From: Corynebacterium nuruki S6-4
GTDB lineage: Bacteria > Actinomycetota > Actinomycetes > Mycobacteriales > Mycobacteriaceae
Length of the DNA: 64,000 bases
Reading direction: 5' to 3'
NCBI RefSeq assembly: GCF_007970465.1
Contig: NZ_CP042429.1
Span: 2,108,001 to 2,172,000 of the forward strand
Shown here: in pieces, positions 23,198-34,805 of the stretch
Layout of the letters: every line of letters starts with the position of its first letter
Numbering within the stretch: position 1 is the first letter of the stretch
Position numbers and translations under genes: made by a program
The notes under the pieces: model-generated
Database searches by the model: none
Told to the model about the DNA's origin: nothing
Seen by the model: the letters and a program-made list of their open reading frames with translations, nothing else

Positions 23198-23434
23198 GTG
23201 AACACCACCCCGGACCCCGACCGCATCGTCTTCGTCGGCGACCTCCACGACAACATCCACGCGTTCATCCACACCACCGACCTCGCCGTGTCCACCGGCG
23301 CGGCCACCATCATCCAGACCGGCGACTTCGGCTTCCACCACCCCGCCGACCTCGACCTCCTGCAACTCCTCCTCGACGAACGCGCCCCCGGCGTCGACTA
23401 CCGGACCATCGACGGCAACCACGAGGACTTCACC
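23198..23434 (+). pseudogene. metallophosphoesterase, 5' fragment
   Basis: From a GTG at 23198 (TACCCT box 8 bp upstream, leaderless style) 79 codons encode the N-terminal half of a calcineurin-like phosphoesterase: VFVGDLHDN (residues 12-18), TGDFG (41-45) and DGNHED (72-77) are metal-ligand motifs. The gene is interrupted at 23434 by the composite transposon. It continues in frame at 33780 after removal of the insert and one copy of the 8-bp duplication, giving a 420-residue protein. Confidence 0.88.
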
Positions 23435-24929
23435 GGCTCTTCCGGTTTCAGAGTGCGTTGATTGCGCCCCGGAGTCCACCCGAGTGGATCAGTGACCTCA
23501 AGATGTAGTTGGCCTTGTTCCGGAATCCCAGGGCGATACCGCGCAGGTGTCCCAGCTTGCCGTTGATGTTCTCGACCGGACCGTTGGACGCACCGGTGTC
23601 GAAGTACGCGAGGATGTCAGCCTGCCGCCGCCACAGGGTCTGACCCAGCACCCGCAGTTCCCGCAAGTCATTGGGGATCTTCACGTGCAGAGCCTTGATC
23701 ACCTTGAACATCCGCAGCTTCCCGTCGCGTGGCCGGTCAGCCTGATAGGCGGCAAGAATCTCCTGGTAGAAATACCACGTCACCTGCACCGGCAGGTGCG
23801 CCTCGGCGGTGAGCACGTCATCAAGTTTCACCGCGTTGGCCGGGGTCACCAGTGACTTACGGGTCAGCAGAATGCGCCGGATCCCGTACAACGGATCCCC
23901 CGACCGCCCGCGGTGTCCTGTCGTCTCATTCTGGACCCGCTGCCGACATGCGGTGAGCTTGTCGATGGCCAGATGGACGACATGGAACGGGTCCATGACC
24001 TGCCGGGCCTGGCTCAGATGCTGGGTCGCGGCTTTCGCGTAGCCGGTGAATCCGTCCATGGTCACCACCCGGATCCTGTGGCGGAACGTGCTGCCGCGGG
24101 CGTCGAGCCAGTCGCCGAACGCGTCGGCACTGCGGCCGGGCACCATATCGAGCAGTCGGGCCGAGCCCACCCCGTCGACCAGCGGGGTCAGGTCGACGAT
24201 CACGGTGACGAAGCCCGGGGGACCCGTCACCACGGACGTGCTTCCACTTGTGCTCGTCGACGCCGAGGACCCGGACCCGGTCCAACCGGGACGGATCCTG
24301 ATAGGACAACTGCCGGCAGGCCGACAGGGCCAGTTGGTTGACCTTGTCCCAGCCGATACCCAACGCCCGGGCACAGGCTGTCACGCTCATCCCGTCGGTC
24401 GCCATGCGCTGGAGGATCCAGCGGGTCACTCGGCAGGTTACGGACTGTCGATCGTCGGCCGCCTGAGGGATAGGGGCCTGGAAGACGGTGACAGGACAAT
24501 CGTCGTTGCCGCAGACCAGCCGGGGTACACGCACGTGCAGGACACTGGGGTGCCCGGCGATGGGCAGGTCTGTTAGTCGTCGTTCGACGTGGTCACGGAC
24601 CTGGCAGTCCCGCCCGCAGCCCGGGCAGGTGGTGGACACCGACACGGGGTGGCAATACAGGTGGGTGACGTCCCCGGCGTCGGCGGCGTTGTCGATCGAC
24701 AGGCCCAGCTCGGCAGTCCGGCAGATCGTGTCGGCGACGAGGTTCGGGGCGGGACCAGGGGTAACGGTAGGGTGAGACATGGATCCTGGAGCGGTTGGAT
24801 GGATGCTTAAGACACCTTCATCCTGTCACTGCAGGGTCCTTCTACGTTCCCGGCCCCGGCCCCCTACATGTTGTGGTGGCCCATCCGGCCTGCTGCACAC
24901 CTGCTACGCACTCTTCATTCGGAAGAGCC
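23435..24929 (-). mobile_element. ISL3-family insertion sequence, left copy
   Basis: This 1,495-bp element starts GGCTCTTCCG and ends with its complement CGGAAGAGCC; the imperfect inverted repeats extend about 25 bp (AGAGTGCGT shared). These ends are typical of corynebacterial ISL3 elements of the IS1207/IS31831 kind. It is nearly identical to the right copy, with ten differences seen, nine of them in 24285-24310. Confidence 0.92.
23448..24780 (-). pseudogene. ISL3 transposase, frameshifted (left copy)
   Basis: The N-terminal part (from ATG 24780) has the zinc finger STTCPGCGRDCQ and CGNDDC, a helix-turn-helix (MSVTACARALGIGWDKV) and VLGVDEHKWKHV with the first catalytic Asp. The C-terminal part in another frame has VTMDGFTGYAKA, VMDPFHVVHLA and NGPVENINGKLG. 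The frames join at a run of five G (24217-24221); one base fewer gives SPGFVTVIVDL and a 443-residue transposase, the usual size. The same shift is in the right copy, so it may be a programmed +1 event rather than damage. Confidence 0.85.
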
Positions 24930-25042
24930 TGGAAACAGGGACAGTGCACCGCAAGTGTCTTCCATTGAGGCTAGGTATTGAAAAACTTTAGAGGTAGACG
25001 GCCATTCTTTATGGGGTTAGTCGCACCGGTTATACCGCAGAC

Positions 25043-25887
25043 CTACTCACAGGACGCCGCGAGCTTACGCGACAGAGCCTCCAGATAGACCGCGTCCTGC
25101 GAACCCGGATCCCAGATCATCTCATTGAACATCTCCGCGTAGGTGCCGTCCTCCCGGAGGATCCTGCGGTAGGCCAGCCCCGGGGTGACGTTGCGCTCCG
25201 GCAGCAGGATCGAACCCATCCCCTTGCCCACCCAGCTGAGCAGGGTGGAACAGTTGGCGACCTCGACCTCCGACCGCCCCAGGGACAGCCCCTCCTCGTC
25301 CAGCAGACTGTGGACGGTACGGGTGATCCCGCACCCGTTCCTCGCGAGAATGAGCTCTTGTTCCGCCAGTTCCCGGACAGTCACCGGTTCACGTTCCCCG
25401 GACGTGTCCGACGAGCCCTCGGTCTCGACGAGGACGAGGTAGTCCGAATTGATCAGGCGGTGACTGTAAGCCGGCAGCAGTCCGTGCGCCGGAACCATGA
25501 TCACGTCCAGCATCCCACCCCGGAGGTACTCCTCCAGTTGGTCGAGCTCGGACTCGAAGAGAGTGGCGTCCCTGCCCGGCGTCTCCGGCGAGTAGGTCTC
25601 CGGCCCGTAGACCAGTTCGCGCAGCCTGGTGACCAGGACCTTCTCGATCTGCGGTGACGTCCCGACCCGGATCTTCCCGTGCCCCCGTTCCGTGAAGGCC
25701 CGGGCCTCCGTCTCGACCCGTTCCAGGTCGACGACGACCTGGTTGACGCGGGGAAGGATGACGTCCCCGAAAGCTGTGGGCAGCGTCCCCCGCGGGTTAC
25801 GGAGAAAGAGACGTCCACCGAGGTATTCCTCGAGCTTGGCGATACTGGAGGACAACGCGGGCTGGGTGACGTTGAAACGTCGCGCAG
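25043..25887 (-). pseudogene. LysR-type regulator, 3' part (split by IS3 element)
   Basis: This part reads ARRFNVTQPALSSSIAKLEE, the recognition helix of a LysR DNA-binding domain, and then the full substrate-binding domain (GKIRVGTSPQIEKVL, AHGLLPAYSHRL, ELILARNGCGITRTV, GKGMGSILLPE) to the stop at 25043. The first 25 codons lie at 27230-27305 beyond the IS3 element. Rejoined after removing one CAG duplication the protein would have 305 residues, normal for the family. A truncated product from an internal start would lack the recognition helix. Confidence 0.85.
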
Positions 25888-25914
25888 TGAACCGTCACAC
25901 TTTTGTTGCCGCCG

Positions 25915-26847
25915 TTAGATTGGCTGAGTGGCCTTCTCAGACACCTGTCTCAGTGTAGCGTGTTCGGCCCAGAACGTGTCCTCGAACTCCGCCGGCGGGA
26001 CCATCCCCAACGACGAGTGAAGTCGGGACGTGTTGTACCAGTGCACCCACGACGACGTCGCAATCTCCACATCCACCACCGACTCCAGCACCTCGGGGCT
26101 GAAGACCCGGTTGCGGATGCACTCGGCCTTGTACAACCCGTTGATCGTCTCCATCAACGCATTGTCGTACGCGTCTCCGACAGTGCCGACTGACGGGCTG
26201 ATGCCCTCATCGGCCAGCGCACCGGTGAACCTCACCGCCGTGTACTGGCTTCCGGCATCCGAATGATGGATCAACCGGTCACGGTCTACCGGATGATCAC
26301 CGCGTCTGCGCTCCCACAACGCCAGGCGCAGCGGGATCCGCACCAGTTCCACACCCTTGGACGTCTGCGCGTGCCAGGCGACGAGCCGCTGGGAGAACAC
26401 GTCGACGATGAACGCGACGTACACCCAGCCTGACGTGGTCATCACGTAGGTGAAGTCCGCGACCCACACCAGGTTCGGTGCCGCTGCGGTGAAGTCCCGG
26501 TGCAGCAGATCCGACGCCCGGTCCTCAGGCTGGTTCTTCTTGCTTCGTGACGGTGACTTGCGCCTGCTCACCCCGGCCATTCCGGCGACACCCATCAGCC
26601 GGTCGACGGTCCAGTGCGCCACCTCGTGGCCGAGGCGCCGCAGGTGGGCAACCATTTTCCGCCGTCCGTACAACGATTCCGGGGTACCTTTCAGCCCGTG
26701 GAGGGTGTCCAGCAGTTGCGCATCGGACACCGTCCTGGGCGACGGGCCGGTGGCCCTGGCGTGACGGTAGGTCCGCGCCGCGATCGCCACACCCTGCCCC
26801 CGCAGGACCCGGCAGATCGACTCGACGGCGTGGCCTTGGCTTCTCAT
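25915..26847 (-). CDS. IS3-family transposase OrfB (DDE integrase core)
   Basis: This 310-residue product has the retroviral-type integrase domain. The catalytic triad is visible as VADFTYV (Asp), HHSDAGSQYTA (Asp) and DNALMETINGLYKAE (Glu). An HTH_21-like region precedes it (SLYGRRKMVAHLRRLGHEV). It follows orfA with a 20-bp gap in another frame, so the active transposase is probably an OrfAB fusion made by frameshifting, as known for the family. No stop or indel interrupts it. Confidence 0.92.
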   Translation of the reverse strand: MRSQGHAVESICRVLRGQGVAIAARTYRHARATGPSPRTVSDAQLLDTLHGLKGTPESLYGRRKMVAHLRRLGHEVAHWTVDRLMGVAGMAGVSRRKSPSRSKKNQPEDRASDLLHRDFTAAAPNLVWVADFTYVMTTSGWVYVAFIVDVFSQRLVAWHAQTSKGVELVRIPLRLALWERRRGDHPVDRDRLIHHSDAGSQYTAVRFTGALADEGISPSVGTVGDAYDNALMETINGLYKAECIRNRVFSPEVLESVVDVEIATSSWVHWYNTSRLHSSLGMVPPAEFEDTFWAEHATLRQVSEKATQPI

Positions 26848-26867
26848 CTGGTCGATGAACCCGATGA

Positions 26868-27179
26868 TCAGCGGTTTCGGGGGTCGAGTTCCCCGGCGAA
26901 GAAAACCGTCGCCGCCTTGAGGATCTCGTTGGATTCCCGCAGTCGCTTGATTTCCTTGCGCAGGCGCCGGATCTCCTCGTTGTCACCGGTGGTGACACCG
27001 GGGGCGTCTCCGGCGTCGATGTCGGCCTGGCGGGCCCAGTTACGCAGCGTCTCACGCGAGACTCCGAGCTCGTCACCGAGAGCGCGGCACACCGCAGTCA
27101 TTGACGGGTAGTCACTGCGTTGCTGCTGCACCAGGCGGATGGCCCGGGCCTTGAACTCCGGGTCGTAGTGCTTGTTCAT
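26868..27179 (-). CDS. IS3-family transposase OrfA
   Basis: This 103-residue protein starts MNKHYDPEFKARAIRLV and carries a helix-turn-helix (LGVSRETLRNWARQADID) followed by a leucine-zipper-like coiled coil (NEEIRRLRKEIKRLRESNEIL) used for dimerisation. It binds the element's ends. An AAGGA motif lies eight bases before the ATG. Confidence 0.92.
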   Translation of the reverse strand: MNKHYDPEFKARAIRLVQQQRSDYPSMTAVCRALGDELGVSRETLRNWARQADIDAGDAPGVTTGDNEEIRRLRKEIKRLRESNEILKAATVFFAGELDPRNR

Positions 27180-27229
27180 GTTGTTGATCCTTCCTCATTG
27201 GAAGGCGGCAAGATACCCGTGACGGTTCA

Positions 27230-27305
27230 CAGCAGCGCTGAAGGACCCCGCATCAGCCACGGCGTCAGCATAGCGCAGTGATTCCAGTGACAGTCGGCCA
27301 TTCAT
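27230..27305 (-). pseudogene. LysR-type regulator, 5' part
   Basis: From the ATG at 27305 the codons read MNGRLSLESLRYADAVADAG then SFSAA, the first helices of a LysR DNA-binding domain, ending at the IS3 insertion. It joins in frame to the part ending at 25043. The remaining cargo genes on the same strand lie upstream, so transcription from them could still enter this fragment. Confidence 0.85.
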
Positions 27306-27335
27306 AATGCTTCTAGTCTAGTGTTCTGACCTCTA

Positions 27336-27369
27336 ACATCAGCATCGCAGCCATAAGTGATGCTGATGT
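27336..27369. promoter_or_regulatory. perfect 11-bp inverted repeat between DUF302 gene and lysR
   Basis: Arms ACATCAGCATC and GATGCTGATGT flank a 12-base loop, 31 bp upstream of the lysR ATG. It may be a regulator operator (LysR regulators often bind near their own start) or a terminator for the upstream DUF302 gene; there is no T-run after it. Confidence 0.5.
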
Positions 27370-27421
27370 ATCGGCTCTTTCGTCTATGCCGTCCCGCCAA
27401 GAGCCGGGCCCCGACAGTCGG

Positions 27422-27847
27422 TCAGGCGTCCGCCAGCGACGCGATCGCCGCGGAAACCCGGGCCGCGGCGTCCTCCGCGACCTCCCTGACGCCGTCGGCA
27501 CCCTCGGAACCCTCAGCACCGACGAAGGACACCATCAGCGCCGGATTCACCGCCTCGACATGGATGATGCCGCCGTCTTCCCGGTCACGCCGAATGACCA
27601 CGTTGCAGGGCATCATCAACCCCACCGCCCGTGACGCCTCCAGTGCCCGGTAGGCGAAATCCGGCTTGCAGGCACCGAGGATGAGGAAATCCTCCAGCTC
27701 AGCGCCGATCTTCGTCCTCATCGTGGCGGTGACGTCGATCTCGGTGAGGACGCCGAACCCTTGTGCGGCCAGGGCCCCGCGGGTGCGGGTCACGGCCTCG
27801 TCGAAGGGACAGGTGACGGTGGTGGAGAAGGAAAGCTGGTCAGACAT
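27422..27847 (-). CDS. DUF302 protein
   Basis: This 141-residue cytosolic protein starts MSDQLSFSTTV. The DUF302 pattern is clear: CPFDEAVTRTRGALAAQGFGVLTEIDV near the N-terminus, ILGACKPDFAYRALEASRAVGLMMPCNVVIRRD in the middle, and an acidic helical tail. Members bind small ligands or cofactors but their role is not settled. AAAGG seven bases upstream supports the ATG. It is 35 bp after the MMPL gene on the same strand and very likely co-transcribed, under the CsoR/CstR-like repressor. Confidence 0.88.
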   Translation of the reverse strand: MSDQLSFSTTVTCPFDEAVTRTRGALAAQGFGVLTEIDVTATMRTKIGAELEDFLILGACKPDFAYRALEASRAVGLMMPCNVVIRRDREDGGIIHVEAVNPALMVSFVGAEGSEGADGVREVAEDAAARVSAAIASLADA

Positions 27848-27882
27848 GGTCGAACCTTTCGTGGTGAGTTCAGTGGGATCGG

Positions 27883-30042
27883 TCAGTGGGAGAAACTGAT
27901 GTCCGGCAGCATCCGGCGCAGCCAGGCCGGTGACCACCAGGCCGCGGGTCCGGTGAGGATCAGCACCGCCGGCAGGAGCACCAGACGGATGAGCAGTGCG
28001 TCGAGGAGGACCGCGGTACCGAGGATGATACCCATCTCCTTCGGCGGCAACGGCTCCGCCAGGGCGAAGGTGAAGAACACGGCGACCATGACCGCCGCCG
28101 CGGCGAAGATGATCCTGCCGGAATGCGCCATACCCTCGATCACCGCGGTCGGGGAGTCACCGGCGATCTCATGGTGCTCCTTCACGGTGGCGAGCAGGAA
28201 CACTGTGTAGTCCATCGCCACAGCGAAGATCATCGCGAAGAAGAACACCGGCCCCCAGCCGTCGAGGAATCCCTGCGGTTCGAAGCCGAGGAACCGGGAC
28301 AGATCCCCGTTCTGGAAGATCAGCCGGGCCACGCCGAAGGCAGCGCCGGTGGACAGCAGGCTGACCACCGTACCGATCACCGCGATCAACGGTGCCCGCA
28401 GTGCGATGAGCAGCAGCAGGAAGCCGAGCAGCAGGATCACGCCGACGATCAGCGGGAAGTAACTGTCGAGGGCGTCCTGCAGATCGATGTTCTCCGCCGG
28501 TGCACCGCCGACCAGGGCAGAACCGGGCAGATCATCGCGCAACTGTTCGAGGATCCCGTTCATCGCCTTGTCCGAGGGGTCAACCTCAGGAACGGCCTGG
28601 AACATGGACAGTCCTGAATCATCGGTGGCGGGCATGGTCGGCGTCACCGCACCGATGCCGTCGGTCGCGGCGGCGATCCGTGCAGCCTCTGCGGCGTCAC
28701 CGTCGTCGACGATGACCTGGAGCATGCCCGGCGCACCCTCTCCCATGGCATCCTGGACAAGGTGGTAGCCCTGGCGGACCGGTGCATCCTCGGGGACGAC
28801 CGCGATCGACGGCATCGCCACCTTGAGACCGATAACCGGGATACACAGCACGATGAGCAGTCCGGTGGACGCCCCGGCCGCAATCAGCGGATGTCTGCGC
28901 AGCAGCGTCGCCCACCGGGCGAACACCGGTGACCGGTGCGTCTGTCGCTTGGCGAAGGGTAGGGCGACCGCATTGACGCGGGGCCCCAGCGCCCCGAGGA
29001 CCGCAGGAAGGAGGGTGAAGGTCGCTGCGAGGACGAAGACCACGGCGAGCATGATGCCGACCGCCATGGTCTGCACCGCCGGTGCCGGCACGAGCAGGAC
29101 AGCGGAGAGGCTGATGAGCACGGTGAGCCCGGACAGCAGGACCGCCTTTCCTGCGGTGCCGTAGGTGACGACGACGGCGTCCTTCGGCGTGTCCGAGGTA
29201 CGCAACGCATCCCGGAAACGGGCGACGATGAACAGCGCGTAGTCGATCCCGAGGGCGAGGGCGAACATCAGGGCGAAGTTCATCGCCCACACCGAGATGG
29301 GGCTCACCGAGTTGAGCAGCACCAGGGCACCCGCGGAGGCGACGAGGCCGGCGATGGTGAGCATCAGTGGCAGTCCGGCGGCGACGAGACTACCGAAGGC
29401 GATGACGAGGATGATCAGAGTGACCGGCCACGACATCATCTCGGCCTTCATCATGGCGTCATGGTTGGCCTTGTTGAAGTCACTCCACAGCATCGACTGC
29501 CCGGTGGGGAAGACCTCGACGGTGTCGGTGGCCAGATCGGTGATGTCACCGGAGAGCTCATCGGCGAGCCGGACCATGTCGTCGGTGTCCGCGGCGGCCC
29601 CGGCGATGAGGATGCCGGTCCTCCCGTCCTGACTGACCGTGACGCCGGGGGTCGGGGGCATCACGTCGGCGATGCGGTCATCGGCCTCGAGCAGGTCGGT
29701 GGCCTTGTCGATGATGGCGGTGGTGGCGTCATCCCCGATTGTTCCGGCGTCGGTGTGGATGACGACCTGGATGGCGGAGGACGCGTTGCCTCCGAAGTGT
29801 TCCTGGGCGAGGTCCCGGACGGCGACGGATTCGGAACCGTCAGCCTGCCATCCCGCGCCGGCGAGGTCGTCGAAGACCGAGGGTGCGGCGGCACCGAGGC
29901 CGACGAGGACCATCAGCCAGACACCCAGGACCGGTTTCATGTGGTGTGCCATCCATCCGCCCCACCGTGCGAGGACGCCTGGCGGTCCCACCTGGTCGGA
30001 TGCAGTCGCCATGGACTGTACGGCGTCTGTCTGCGTGGTCAC
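27883..30042 (-). CDS. MMPL/RND-family exporter
   Basis: This 719-residue protein has two repeats, each a single helix, a large periplasmic-side loop and about five helices. Key Gly/Asp-Tyr motifs of MMPL proteins are present in both halves: ALGIDYALFIVARFR near residue 270 and AVAMDYTVFLLATVKE near residue 615. Such proteins use proton motive force to move lipids or hydrophobic compounds. The GTG at 30042 has AAGGAG five bases upstream. It is divergent from the CsoR/CstR-like gene, and the 98-bp gap holds two operators. Confidence 0.9.
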   Translation of the reverse strand: MTTQTDAVQSMATASDQVGPPGVLARWGGWMAHHMKPVLGVWLMVLVGLGAAAPSVFDDLAGAGWQADGSESVAVRDLAQEHFGGNASSAIQVVIHTDAGTIGDDATTAIIDKATDLLEADDRIADVMPPTPGVTVSQDGRTGILIAGAAADTDDMVRLADELSGDITDLATDTVEVFPTGQSMLWSDFNKANHDAMMKAEMMSWPVTLIILVIAFGSLVAAGLPLMLTIAGLVASAGALVLLNSVSPISVWAMNFALMFALALGIDYALFIVARFRDALRTSDTPKDAVVVTYGTAGKAVLLSGLTVLISLSAVLLVPAPAVQTMAVGIMLAVVFVLAATFTLLPAVLGALGPRVNAVALPFAKRQTHRSPVFARWATLLRRHPLIAAGASTGLLIVLCIPVIGLKVAMPSIAVVPEDAPVRQGYHLVQDAMGEGAPGMLQVIVDDGDAAEAARIAAATDGIGAVTPTMPATDDSGLSMFQAVPEVDPSDKAMNGILEQLRDDLPGSALVGGAPAENIDLQDALDSYFPLIVGVILLLGFLLLLIALRAPLIAVIGTVVSLLSTGAAFGVARLIFQNGDLSRFLGFEPQGFLDGWGPVFFFAMIFAVAMDYTVFLLATVKEHHEIAGDSPTAVIEGMAHSGRIIFAAAAVMVAVFFTFALAEPLPPKEMGIILGTAVLLDALLIRLVLLPAVLILTGPAAWWSPAWLRRMLPDISFSH

Positions 30043-30081
30043 ATTGTCTCCTTCTGTCGTCTACCGTCCCCTGCGCGGTAT

Positions 30082-30097
30082 ATACCCCGGGGGGTAT
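30082..30097. promoter_or_regulatory. CsoR/CstR-type operator 1
   Basis: Perfect inverted repeat ATACCCC-GG-GGGGTAT in the gap between the divergent MMPL and repressor genes. G/C-tract palindromes flanked by ATA/TAT are the known operator type of the CsoR family. It would control the MMPL-DUF302 transcript. Confidence 0.8.
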
Positions 30098-30112
30098 GTG
30101 CGAGAGTCCAAC

Positions 30113-30128
30113 ATACCTGTGGGGGTAT
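30113..30128. promoter_or_regulatory. CsoR/CstR-type operator 2
   Basis: ATACCTGTGGGGGTAT matches operator 1 at 13 of 16 positions and overlaps the TATAGG box that probably serves as the repressor gene's own -10 region, so autoregulation is likely. Confidence 0.75.
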
Positions 30129-30140
30129 AGGATCGCAACC

Positions 30141-30410
30141 ATGAGCCTCAACGACGAGACGACCGCCGCCGCCCTGAACCGCCTGAAGAGGGCGCGCGGT
30201 CAGCTCAACGGCGTCATCGACATGATCGAGCAAGGCCGCGACTGCCGCGACATCGTCACCCAGCTCGCGGCCGTGTCCCGCGCCCTCGACCGGGCGGGTG
30301 TGAAGGTCATCTCCGGGGGAATGCGCGAATGCATCCGCGCCGCGGAGAACGGGGAACAACCCGAATTGTCCGAGGATGAGCTGGAGAAGATGTTCCTGTC
30401 ACTGTCATGA
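30141..30410 (+). CDS. CsoR-family repressor, CstR-like residue pattern
   Basis: This 89-residue all-helical repressor has the family pattern NRLKRARGQLNGVIDMIEQGRDC ... QLAAVSRALDRAGVKVI ... MRECI. Cys35 and Cys64 sit at the family's conserved sensing positions 29 residues apart. The His that completes the Cu(I) site in CsoR is replaced (Gly60). That pattern fits persulfide-sensing CstR-like members better than copper CsoR, but this is inference. The ATG at 30141 follows a TATAGGAT box by 7 bp, leaderless style. Confidence 0.88.
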   Translation: MSLNDETTAAALNRLKRARGQLNGVIDMIEQGRDCRDIVTQLAAVSRALDRAGVKVISGGMRECIRAAENGEQPELSEDELEKMFLSLS

Positions 30411-30903
30411 CTGCCCCGAATGGCGCACGCAACACTGCAGGGTTGACGTCGGTAGATGTTCGCAGCACCGGACGGGTCTGGTCGACTGGCCTGCTTGTAT
30501 GCAGCCGGTAGGGAGACGGCGACCGCGCGGACGAACTCGGGTAGTGCGTCGTACTGGGCGTTCCGGTGGTGCCCCGGGGCCGGGGTTGCACCAATCCCGG
30601 GAAATCAACCCTCCCCGGGGATCTCAACGAGATCGAGGCAGCAACTCCCACCACGCTCAAGGTGGTGGGACACGGTCAAGGAAATACACGTCCACGTCGT
30701 GGCGGGTGCTGGGCGTTGACCTGCCTAGCCGTGATCATCGGCCGGCGGCCATGGGCCGATGTAGTCGGGGTTGCGCACCTGGCCCGGATAGTTCACCCGG
30801 CTGCTGATCCGACCCCCTGAAAACACGAGAATAGTGACCCTGAACTGCTACGATTCTAGGTGCTGAAGCCGAAATCTGAACAAGAACGTCGATCACCCTC
30901 ACA
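30411..30903. other. 490 bp without a recognised gene
   Basis: No supported coding frame is seen between the repressor and the IS1380-like ORF. A perfect hairpin TCCCACCAC/GTGGTGGGA at 30646-30670 (7-base loop) may terminate the repressor transcript. The left end of the IS1380-like element must lie here but I cannot place it. Confidence 0.5.
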
Positions 30904-32276
30904 GTGCAAGACCACCAACACTTGTCAATCGACATCACCACTGACCAGTCGATCTGCACAGGCGCCGGCACACTGCTCGTCGCCGACACCGCGAACACCC
31001 TCGGCATCGCAGAGGTTCTCGACGAACATCTCGCCGGCCTGACCCCGTCAGCAGTCACCCACACCGCCGGGACGGTGATGACGTCCCTGGCTGTCGCTTT
31101 GACTGCTGGCGCCACCTGCCTCGATGACCTGGACCTGCTGAAGCCTCTGGTGGCTACGGGTCTGACCAGGCCCATCGACTCAATGACCACCGCACACCGG
31201 CGGATCCACCAACTCCACGACCACGCCGATCTGGTTGACGACAAGATGACCCGGGCAATGCGACAGGCCCGCACCCTCGCCTGGAACGCACTCGGGGCAC
31301 TGAACCCGATCGCTTCGGCAACCAGGGATGACCCGCTGATCATCGACATCGACGCCTCCCTGATCCACATCCACTCCAACACACAGAACGGGCGCACCGA
31401 CCTACAAAGGCGGCTACGGGTTCCACCCCCTGTGCGCCTTCGTCGACCACGGACCGGGTCTGGGCGGTGAACCCCTGGCCCTGCTCATGCGGCCGGGAAA
31501 CGCCGGGGCGAACAACGCCGACGACCACATCACCCTGCTCCGCCGGGCCTACCGGGCCCTGCCCGGATCCCAGCGCGGCGGCAACATCGGACACAAGATC
31601 CTCGTACGCACCGACGGGGCCGGCGGAACGAGAAACGTTGCCGCCTACCTCCACTCCCGCGGCTTCGCCTACTCGTTGGGCATCCGGGTGACCGACAAGA
31701 TCGGCGCGCTGGTGTCCACCATGTCCGACGAGATCAAGCAGGGCGTTCTACGCCCCGGTGCCAACGGTGGGGTCACCGATGCCGACACCGCCTATGTCGC
31801 CGATATCACCGGGCTACTGTCCACCGGGAAGGCCGGGGAGTACGGCATCAACCTGGATAGCTTCCCCACCGGTACCCGGGTCATCGTCCGGGTGGAGTAC
31901 CCCGCGGCGGGCTGCCAGTTGCGCATCACCGATGTGGACGGTCGACGGGTCACGGCATTCATCACCGACTCGGCCGGCCAACCCCAGGTGCTGGACCTGC
32001 GACACCGGGGCCGGGGCCGGTGCGAGCAGCGCATCAAAGACGCCAAGGACCTCAGCTTCCTCGCCGTGCCCCACCACTCGTTCGCGGCGAAGAAGGCCCG
32101 CACCGCTGCCCGGTCATGGTGGTGGTTATGGGACCCCGGCTCACTACGAGCCCGGCTGCTGTCCACTGCGGCGACGGTGGCCCGTCACGCCAGACAGGTG
32201 CGGGTGCACTTGGATGGTCATGCCCCGCACACTGGCCTGCTGGCCGCGGCCTTGGCCCAGATACGGTCACTGAACC
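30904..32276 (+). pseudogene. IS1380-family transposase, frameshifted and 3'-truncated
   Basis: The N-terminal frame (LSIDITTDQSICTGAGTLL ... PLIIDIDASLIHIHSNTQNG) and a second frame (APTYKGGYGFHPLCAFVDHG ... VRTDGAGGTRNVAAYLHSRG) belong to one IS1380-type DDE transposase. They join at a GGG run (31390-31392); one G fewer restores the frame. At 32276 the right ISL3 copy cuts the gene after SLNRL, so the C-terminus and right end are lost. The element cannot move on its own. Confidence 0.85.
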
Positions 32277-33771
32277 GGCTCTTCCGGTTTCAGAGTGCGT
32301 TGATTGCGCCCCGGAGTCCACCCGAGTGGATCAGTGACCTCAAGATGTAGTTGGCCTTGTTCCGGAATCCCAGGGCGATACCGCGCAGGTGTCCCAGCTT
32401 GCCGTTGATGTTCTCGACCGGACCGTTGGACGCACCGGTGTCGAAGTACGCGAGGATGTCAGCCTGCCGCCGCCACAGGGTCTGACCCAGCACCCGCAGT
32501 TCCCGCAAGTCATTGGGGATCTTCACGTGCAGAGCCTTGATCACCTTGAACATCCGCAGCTTCCCGTCGCGTGGCCGGTCAGCCTGATAGGCGGCAAGAA
32601 TCTCCTGGTAGAAATACCACGTCACCTGCACCGGCAGGTGCGCCTCGGCGGTGAGCACGTCATCAAGTTTCACCGCGTTGGCCGGGGTCACCAGTGACTT
32701 ACGGGTCAGCAGAATGCGCCGGATCCCGTACAACGGATCCCCCGACCGCCCGCGGTGTCCTGTCGTCTCATTCTGGACCCGCTGCCGACATGCGGTGAGC
32801 TTGTCGATGGCCAGATGGACGACATGGAACGGGTCCATGACCTGCCGGGCCTGGCTCAGATGCTGGGTCGCGGCTTTCGCGTAGCCGGTGAATCCGTCCA
32901 TGGTCACCACCCGGATCCTGTGGCGGAACGTGCTGCCGCGGGCGTCGAGCCAGTCGCCGAACGCGTCGGCACTGCGGCCGGGCACCATATCGAGCAGTCG
33001 GGCCGAGCCCACCCCGTCGACCAGCGGGGTCAGGTCGACGATCACGGTGACGAAGCCCGGGGGACCCGTCACCACGGACGTGCTTCCACTTGTGCTCGTC
33101 GACGCCGAGGACCCGGACCCGGTCCAGTCGGGTGGGATCCCCGTAGGACAGGTGCCGGCAGGCCGACAGGGCCAGTTGGTTGACCTTGTCCCAGCCGATA
33201 CCCAACGCCCGGGCACAGGCTGTCACGCTCATCCCGTCGGTCGCCATGCGCTGGAGGATCCAGCGGGTCACTCGGCAGGTTACGGACTGTCGATCGTCGG
33301 CCGCCTGAGGGATAGGGGCCTGGAAGACGGTGACAGGACAATCGTCGTTGCCGCAGACCAGCCGGGGTACACGCACGTGCAGGACAATGGGGTGCCCGGC
33401 GATGGGCAGGTCTGTTAGTCGTCGTTCGACGTGGTCACGGACCTGGCAGTCCCGCCCGCAGCCCGGGCAGGTGGTGGACACCGACACGGGGTGGCAATAC
33501 AGGTGGGTGACGTCCCCGGCGTCGGCGGCGTTGTCGATCGACAGGCCCAGCTCGGCAGTCCGGCAGATCGTGTCGGCGACGAGGTTCGGGGCGGGACCAG
33601 GGGTAACGGTAGGGTGAGACATGGATCCTGGAGCGGTTGGATGGATGCTTAAGACACCTTCATCCTGTCACTGCAGGGTCCTTCTACGTTCCCGGCCCCG
33701 GCCCCCTACATGTTGTGGTGGCCCATCCGGCCTGCTGCACACCTGCTACGCACTCTTCATTCGGAAGAGCC
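32277..33771 (-). mobile_element. ISL3-family insertion sequence, right copy
   Basis: This 1,495-bp element has the same ends as the left copy. Its left flank is the IS1380 transposase gene and its right flank is acttcacc, the duplicate of the base string before the left copy. It differs from the left copy by a cluster of nine bases and one single change. Confidence 0.92.
32290..33622 (-). pseudogene. ISL3 transposase, frameshifted (right copy)
   Basis: Same structure as the left copy: zinc finger and helix-turn-helix with VLGVDEHKWKHV in one frame, VTMDGFTGYAKA and NGPVENINGKLG in the other, joined at five G (33059-33063). The clustered differences change SACRQLSYQDPSRLDR to SACRHLSYGDPTRLDR. 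Both copies keep every other codon open, which would be surprising if the shift had inactivated them long ago. Confidence 0.85.
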
Positions 33772-33779
33772 ACTTCACC

Positions 33780-34805
33780 CTCCTGCACCCCGACGCCACC
33801 ACCCCCACCCCACTGACCCGCAGCATCACCCACATGCCACGCGGCACCCGCGACCGGATCGCCGGAGCGGACCTCCTGTTCCTCGGCGGGGCGACCTCCA
33901 CCGACCGCAGCTGGCGCACCGAAGGCCTCGACTGGTTCCCCGCCGAGCACATCACCGACACCCAGGTCGACCGCGCCATCACCACAGCCCCCGACGCAGC
34001 CGGCGGCCCGGTCGACGTGCTCGTCACCCACGAGACCGGCACCACCGCGTTCGCCGCCCTGGCCGCCGACAGTGAACACGCCCGCGACAAAGTCGGCGAC
34101 CCGCTCGGGGACGCCGACCGGGCCCGCATCGACCGCGTTCTCACCGCCGTGCACCCAACAGTCCACATCCACGGTCACCACCACACCCGCTTCGCCGCAC
34201 CCCTGGACGGCGACCTGACCGGGGTGCTGGACATCGCCCTGGCCAAAGAGACCGACGACGGATCCGTCGTCGTCCTCGACACCCACGCCGGTGGTCCGGA
34301 TCAGTGGACCTGGTCGGTACCGGTGGCCCACCGGCAGGTGATCACCGACACCGGCTGGTACCCGGTCGACGAGTTCACCGTGACCGGGTCCGGTCCCCTG
34401 TGGCCCTGGGCCGACACCGAACTGCCCTGGCCCACACCCGCGTTCACCGCCGACACCCCGGCGGCAACGGTGGAGTCGGTGACCGCCCACCGCATGACCC
34501 TCCAGCGGTTCCTCGACCGCGGCGGCGGGACACACCGACTGCCGAGGACCCGGTGGATGCGCCTCGACGCCGACAAGGCCGTCGAGGCGCATCCTCAGTG
34601 GGCCGGCCCGGCCGAGCGGTTCACACACTGGCTGACCACCGAGGACCTCACCGCCCTGGCGACCCACCTGTTGGATCCGCGGCCGGAGTGCGACGTCTAC
34701 CGGGCACTGAGCACGATGCCACTGCGCTGGGGCACCGCGGAGATCCGACTGTGGGCCACCGACGCCGCGAACCAGCACCGACGGCGAGCAGGAAAAATAC
34801 TCTGA
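33780..34805 (+). pseudogene. metallophosphoesterase, 3' fragment
   Basis: This continues the gene begun at 23198. It reads LLHPDATTPTPLTRSITHMP, then LLFLGGATSTDRSW, the ligand motif VLVTHETG and the final metal motif HIHGHHHTRF, followed by about 200 residues of a C-terminal domain that is not part of the core fold (RFLDRGGGTHRLPRTRWMRL and others) and is unknown to me. Removing the transposon and one acttcacc gives an uninterrupted 420-codon gene. Without a start codon of its own the fragment is probably not made. Confidence 0.88.

Follow-up and report, generated by a model that had tools for sequence, protein, structure and literature searches.

The locus considered here raises the question of whether two copies of an ISL3-family insertion sequence (IS) and the genes between them moved as one element, or came to lie side by side separately. 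The two copies, A and B, are found in the genome of Corynebacterium nuruki S6-4, in a stretch of 64,000 nucleotides (contig NZ_CP042429.1, positions 2,108,001 to 2,172,000, forward strand) that we call the window and in whose numbering positions are given, unless stated otherwise. A preliminary description of the window, made from the letters alone, had read them as the ends of a composite transposon. Our analysis makes it very likely that a composite transposon of 10,337 bp entered a phosphoesterase gene in a single event, with duplication of 8 bp. A single insertion, and the proposed movement of the unit as a whole, are supported by three observations: the duplication is present only at the outer ends, the target gene has an open frame without the unit, and this gene is uninterrupted in four relatives.

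Structure of the unit

The unit is bounded by copies A and B in direct orientation (Table 1), and pairwise comparison of these gives 10 mismatches over 1495 bp. Both carry terminal inverted repeats, with ends GGCTCTTCCG...CGGAAGAGCC. The outer ends alone are flanked by the 8-bp duplication ACTTCACC, the inner flanks, TGGAAACA (24930-24937) and ACTGAACC (32269-32276), being unlike each other. Hence two copies of one IS surround unrelated genes and only the outermost ends carry the duplication, as in a composite transposon. All of this agrees with the preliminary description, whose coordinates, 23427-33779 with both target copies included, proved exact.

The assignment of the end copies to the ISL3 family follows from the transposase domains, the terminal inverted repeats and the length of the duplication. 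In the Pfam search, one transposase frame of copy A matches PF01610 DDE_Tnp_ISL3 (9.9e-48), and the other frame, which carries Zn_ribbon_ISL3, matches PF14690 above the cutoff and PF13542 below it. With the N-terminal frame by itself, the transpos_ISL3 profile scores 108.6 bits, short of the cutoff of 180.

Table 1. Features of the ISL3-bounded unit and of the interrupted gene (window positions)
Feature	Positions	Strand	Basis and remarks
Calcineurin-like phosphoesterase gene, interrupted, 5' part	23198-23434	plus	Pfam, joined frame
Left 8-bp target copy ACTTCACC	23427-23434	n/a	outer flank of copy A
ISL3 copy A	23435-24929	minus	1495 bp; transposase domains by profile search, end alignment
Left inner edge	24930-25042	n/a	homology to the ctaD-LysR spacer in G216 and G120
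LysR-type regulator gene	25043-27305	minus	Pfam; IS3 element inside, near the 5' end after ~25 codons
IS3-family element	25888-27229	minus	3-bp duplication CAG; IS3-type rve domains; single copy found in genome
DUF302 protein (PF03625)	27422-27847	minus	Pfam
MMPL-family exporter (PF03176)	27883-30042	minus	Pfam
Two operator-like palindromes ATACC-N6-GGTAT	30082-30097, 30113-30128	n/a	pattern search
CsoR/CstR-type repressor (PF02583)	30141-30410	plus	Pfam; Cys35, Cys64, no histidine
IS1380-family fragment	30860-32276	plus	IS1380-type DDE; left end may be near 30783; single copy found in genome
ISL3 copy B	32277-33771	minus	1495 bp; 99.3% identical to copy A; frameshift in common
Right 8-bp target copy ACTTCACC	33772-33779	n/a	outer flank of copy B
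Same phosphoesterase gene, 3' part	33780-34805	plus	joined frame

Copy A has 11 matches in the host genome (one contig, 3.17 Mb), A and B included. The other nine comprise five full-length copies (L003-L007, which on alignment share 73-94% identity with A), two partly matching relatives (L008 and L009, 68%) and two fragments (L010 and L011). A perfect 8-bp duplication is found in four of the five other full-length copies: L003 GGTAATTC, L004 CTTTTAGT, L005 CAATATCC and L006 AACATACT (the count covers L003-L007). Judged by these four, 8-bp duplications are the habit of this ISL3 type here.

Neighbouring ISL3 copies of independent origin do occur in this genome: L006 and L004 lie in the same orientation, 1.65 kb apart, and have a duplication each, which is the picture of two independent insertions. 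Copies A and B, unlike this pair, have no duplications of their own, and had they entered independently around native DNA, their outer flanks would match by chance, the agreement of two 8-mers having p = 4.2e-5 at the base composition of the window. Moreover, such an origin is contradicted by the frame that is open across the join and by the absence of the insert in the four relatives with a homologue, so that we regard it as extremely improbable.

The target gene

When the flanks are joined without the unit and without one copy of ACTTCACC, they form one open phosphoesterase frame. The 3' part of the gene was searched in 242 genomes of the genus, one per species (the own genome and 241 others), and matched 39 of them, own included, at E <= 0.001. 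Strong matches (E 3.1e-41 or better) are found only in the own genome, G233, G162, G066 and G177, and the remaining 34 genomes have nothing better than E 1.5e-5. In all four relatives with a clear homologue the protein alignment crosses the insertion point with small gaps only (five homologous copies, four loci; G233, at a contig edge, and G162 each have another strong place outside this count). The intact phosphoesterase gene that the preliminary description proposed to look for is thus represented by uninterrupted homologues in four other species. It had also named two arrangements that would speak against a composite transposon, and we found neither: no cargo flanked by single ISL3 insertions with separate duplications turned up, and none native between the two phosphoesterase halves, its native place in relatives being between ctaD and cydAB.

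Origin of the cargo

The gene order in C. variabile (locus L013; we take genome G233 to be this species) is cydB, cydA, CsoR-type, MMPL, DUF302, LysR, ctaD, and in G216 and G120 (loci L164 and L165) it is ctaD, LysR, MMPL, CsoR-type, cydA, cydB. DUF302 was not matched at the latter two loci (E 1e-8), and the complete four-gene block is seen in C. variabile only; a contig of G203 begins within the block. Starting with its very first base (24930), the left edge of the cargo matches the ctaD-LysR spacer both in G216 (31 bp at 90%) and in G120 (46 bp at 85%). The native position of the block between ctaD and cydAB, together with the matching spacer edge, identifies the cargo as a captured chromosomal block of LysR, DUF302, MMPL and CsoR-type genes. 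By the same comparison, the ctaD side of the block is cut by copy A, and its cydA side is replaced by ~370 bp of unmatched DNA, the IS1380 piece (its reading frame broken, and truncated by copy B) and copy B itself. The repressor-exporter cargo of the preliminary description is present, but within a captured block that holds two further IS pieces and lies between two frameshifted transposases (see below).

The ~370 bp that separate the repressor gene from the IS1380 piece (30411-30780) have no match in the loci fetched from elsewhere, four loci that contain or border the window's own copy being left out of the comparison of 30411-30860.

The host has its own ctaD with a different LysR at 1.95 Mb (L166, near 1.954 Mb), followed by DNA that is found beyond cydAB in C. 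variabile, and its cydAB genes are at 245 kb (G000:C1:245394-248001). The respiratory locus is thus arranged differently in the host than in C. variabile, the host ctaD-LysR lacking both cyd and exporter genes. Searches of the host genome with the cargo and with the C. variabile block did not reveal a further exporter block, giving short partial matches only, and hence the transposon carries the only detected exporter-repressor set of this host.

As for the way in which the unit was put together, we would place the first steps in another bacterium, where one ISL3 copy would have entered the ctaD-LysR spacer and another the inside of an IS1380 element beyond the CsoR-type gene; transposase would then have used the two outermost ends and moved all the DNA between them. 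In the host genome, the IS3 and the IS1380 piece each turned up at this place only, and thus the unit probably arrived whole. Alternatively, it could have been assembled in this host through one IS insertion after another and a deletion, and then moved within the genome. The five other full-length ISL3 copies of the host would suit such a course, as would the fact that one of them, L003, shares a tract of copy A at all nine distinguishing sites. Still, it remains unlikely, given that the host holds no further IS3 or IS1380 copy and that its ctaD-LysR locus is elsewhere and has the different LysR. The structure itself is compatible with cut-and-paste and with replicative movement alike.

Frameshifted ends and probable movement in trans

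In copy A, a frameshift breaks the transposase into two frames that overlap (23929-24780 and 23451-24374), and one frameshift, near IS position 780, is common to A and B, so that neither has the uninterrupted transposase of an autonomous element. In all five other full-length host copies the transposase is open over 452-480 codons from stop to stop. Among the full-length copies from other genomes, L133 and L135 are open and L134 is broken (two open of three; the partial copy L136 of G216 is not in the ISL3 alignment). A programmed frameshift is held to be unlikely, as all five other host copies are open without one. The frameshift may stem from an assembly error that affected A and B alike, or later conversion may have spread it to both ends. 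The simplest reading is that one frameshifted ISL3 was the parent of both ends and that intact relatives gave the transposase in trans. Since the frameshift is common to A and B, an intact related ISL3 transposase probably acted in trans, and movement of the unit in this way is, from the state of the frames, likely.

Nine of the ten differences between A and B are packed in 26 bp (IS positions 851-876). Within this segment A has the state of L003 at 9/9 sites, and B has the state of L004 and L005, also at 9/9, a pattern that suggests a small conversion tract.

L003 is itself a mosaic, near-identical to A and B at IS positions 1-1031 (15 differences to A) and clearly diverged at 1032-1495 (75 differences), which indicates recombination between ISL3 copies.

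The similarity of the two ends bears on another possible history, in which a resident ISL3 with its own duplication lay in the phosphoesterase gene and a circle of cargo plus one ISL3 later recombined into it. Such a route requires direct orientation, as found, and would fit the 99.3% identity of A and B and their conversion-like tract. However, an ordinary circle with one ISL3 insertion should give inner flanks with the same 8 bp, and in fact these differ; the circle itself would need a composite origin or a lost flank; and the frameshift would have to be present in both the resident and the incoming copy, or be spread by later conversion. We therefore consider this history improbable, and retain insertion of the whole composite transposon as the preferred reading. 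More tentatively, and with rather less than even confidence, the frameshifted ISL3 pair could be seen as a non-autonomous composite which intact relatives moved in trans, and which re-supplied the exporter-repressor block missing from the species' own locus and so made a core chromosomal module mobile.

Repressor and predicted operators

The repressor encoded by the cargo has Cys35 and Cys64, 29 residues apart, and no histidine, with Gly at the position of the InrS His. Its best solved relatives are 7mq1-7mq3, in which both cysteines are aligned; their records say CsoR, and we take them to be CstR proteins. The known fingerprint of CstR-type persulfide sensors is a Cys-Cys pair without the CsoR histidine, and the repressor matches this fingerprint.

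The repressor and MMPL genes are divergent, with 98 bp between them, and this spacer holds two ATACC-N6-GGTAT palindromes that start 31 bp apart; no further such site is present in the window. Two palindromes with equal spacing are also found at each of four related loci (L013, L164, L165 and L167). At 80 MMPL loci, 67 of the 124 sites lie in the 340 bp around the start of the MMPL match, and 46 loci have at least one site in these 340 bp, while 34 have none; the spacing of 6 was picked after the sequence had been viewed, so that these numbers do not serve as independent evidence. A spacing of 3-5 gives no site next to MMPL (0 of the 80 loci). The protein is likely to be a thiol-type CsoR/CstR repressor, and the position of the genes and the operator-like sites suggest that it controls the divergent MMPL exporter and DUF302 gene via the two predicted operators. 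It resembles the CstR-type repressors of the CsoR family in the two cysteines 29 residues apart and the lack of histidine.

Search for a donor and points against a single insertion

Several observations weigh against the preferred reading. The uninterrupted sites are homologues in other species (68-81% DNA identity) and not a strict empty site. The preliminary description had suggested a search for the same unit at other loci or on plasmids, and none was found at a second site, either among the matches listed for the 242 genus genomes (one genome per species, no second strain of this species) or in 72,556 plasmid records. The long matches of the cargo outside its own genome, among those listed, reach 69-80% identity. 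A 10.9-kb query matched 52 plasmid records, none with one place covering 80% of it. Moreover, L007, alone among L003-L007, has no duplication (flanks CGTTTGAT and GCTTATGC), and A and B seem to have swapped sequence with other ISL3 copies, so that recombination may have acted too.

Among the 52 plasmid records, 40 match the MMPL region at 72.6-78.7%, and three of the other 12 have matches at 80-90% identity. ISL3 copy A has only 60-80% matches on plasmids (70 records), and the segment 30411-32276 matches 74 records, none covering 80%. The nested IS pieces did not lead to a donor among the genus genomes either: the best match of the IS3 piece is 92% (G162), and that of the IS1380 piece is 82% over 965 of 1409 bases (G120).

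Known ISL3 composites

ISL3 composites with chromosomal cargo are already known. PMC1590026 names IS31831 (ISL3-type) as belonging to Tn14751, and cites a paper on the latter as a native composite that carries 17.4 kb of DNA from the C. glutamicum chromosome. Judged by that account, Tn14751 is like our unit in being a native composite with chromosomal cargo in Corynebacterium, but cargo and length differ, and the unit described here has IS3 and IS1380 pieces and frameshifted ends. In Brevibacterium aurantiacum, according to the relevant parts of PMC6579920, an ISL3-bounded iron-uptake region of 11,797 bp could be a composite transposon in the view of its authors, and its operon is present without IS in C. 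variabile. This candidate shares with our unit the ISL3-family ends around an actinobacterial region; its cargo is different, and its ends, as given there, are different ISs (ISAar39 and ISAar42, 65% protein identity), whereas the ends here are 99.3% identical in DNA. Tn5531, used for C. glutamicum mutagenesis, is likewise built on an IS related to IS31831 (IS1207), and the passage of PMC1590026 on Tn5531 mentions no natural chromosomal cargo. The same paper describes C. glutamicum strain R as lacking elements of the IS31831 family. The preliminary description thus somewhat overstated the rarity of such elements, and was right that the full structure can be read here: the unit is a further, well-preserved example.

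It offers a clean case of an IS pair that lifts a native chromosomal gene block and moves it as a unit, and with a frameshift in both ends it becomes possible to test whether resident relatives complement them in trans. The spread of export modules among actinobacteria could in part be explained by ISL3 composites of this sort.

ISL3 remnants in the host genome

Two of the full-length host copies adjoin ISL3 pieces. L005, with an open transposase frame, lies ~200 bp from the inverted partial ISL3 L010 (80%, 443 bp), forming a remnant cluster at G000:C1:1146618-1148768. L007 is identical to L006 and yet has no target duplication; it lies 60 bp from L011, an oppositely oriented end piece of ISL3 with a length of 205 bp (G000:C1:1232459-1234217), and this arrangement suggests a local rearrangement.

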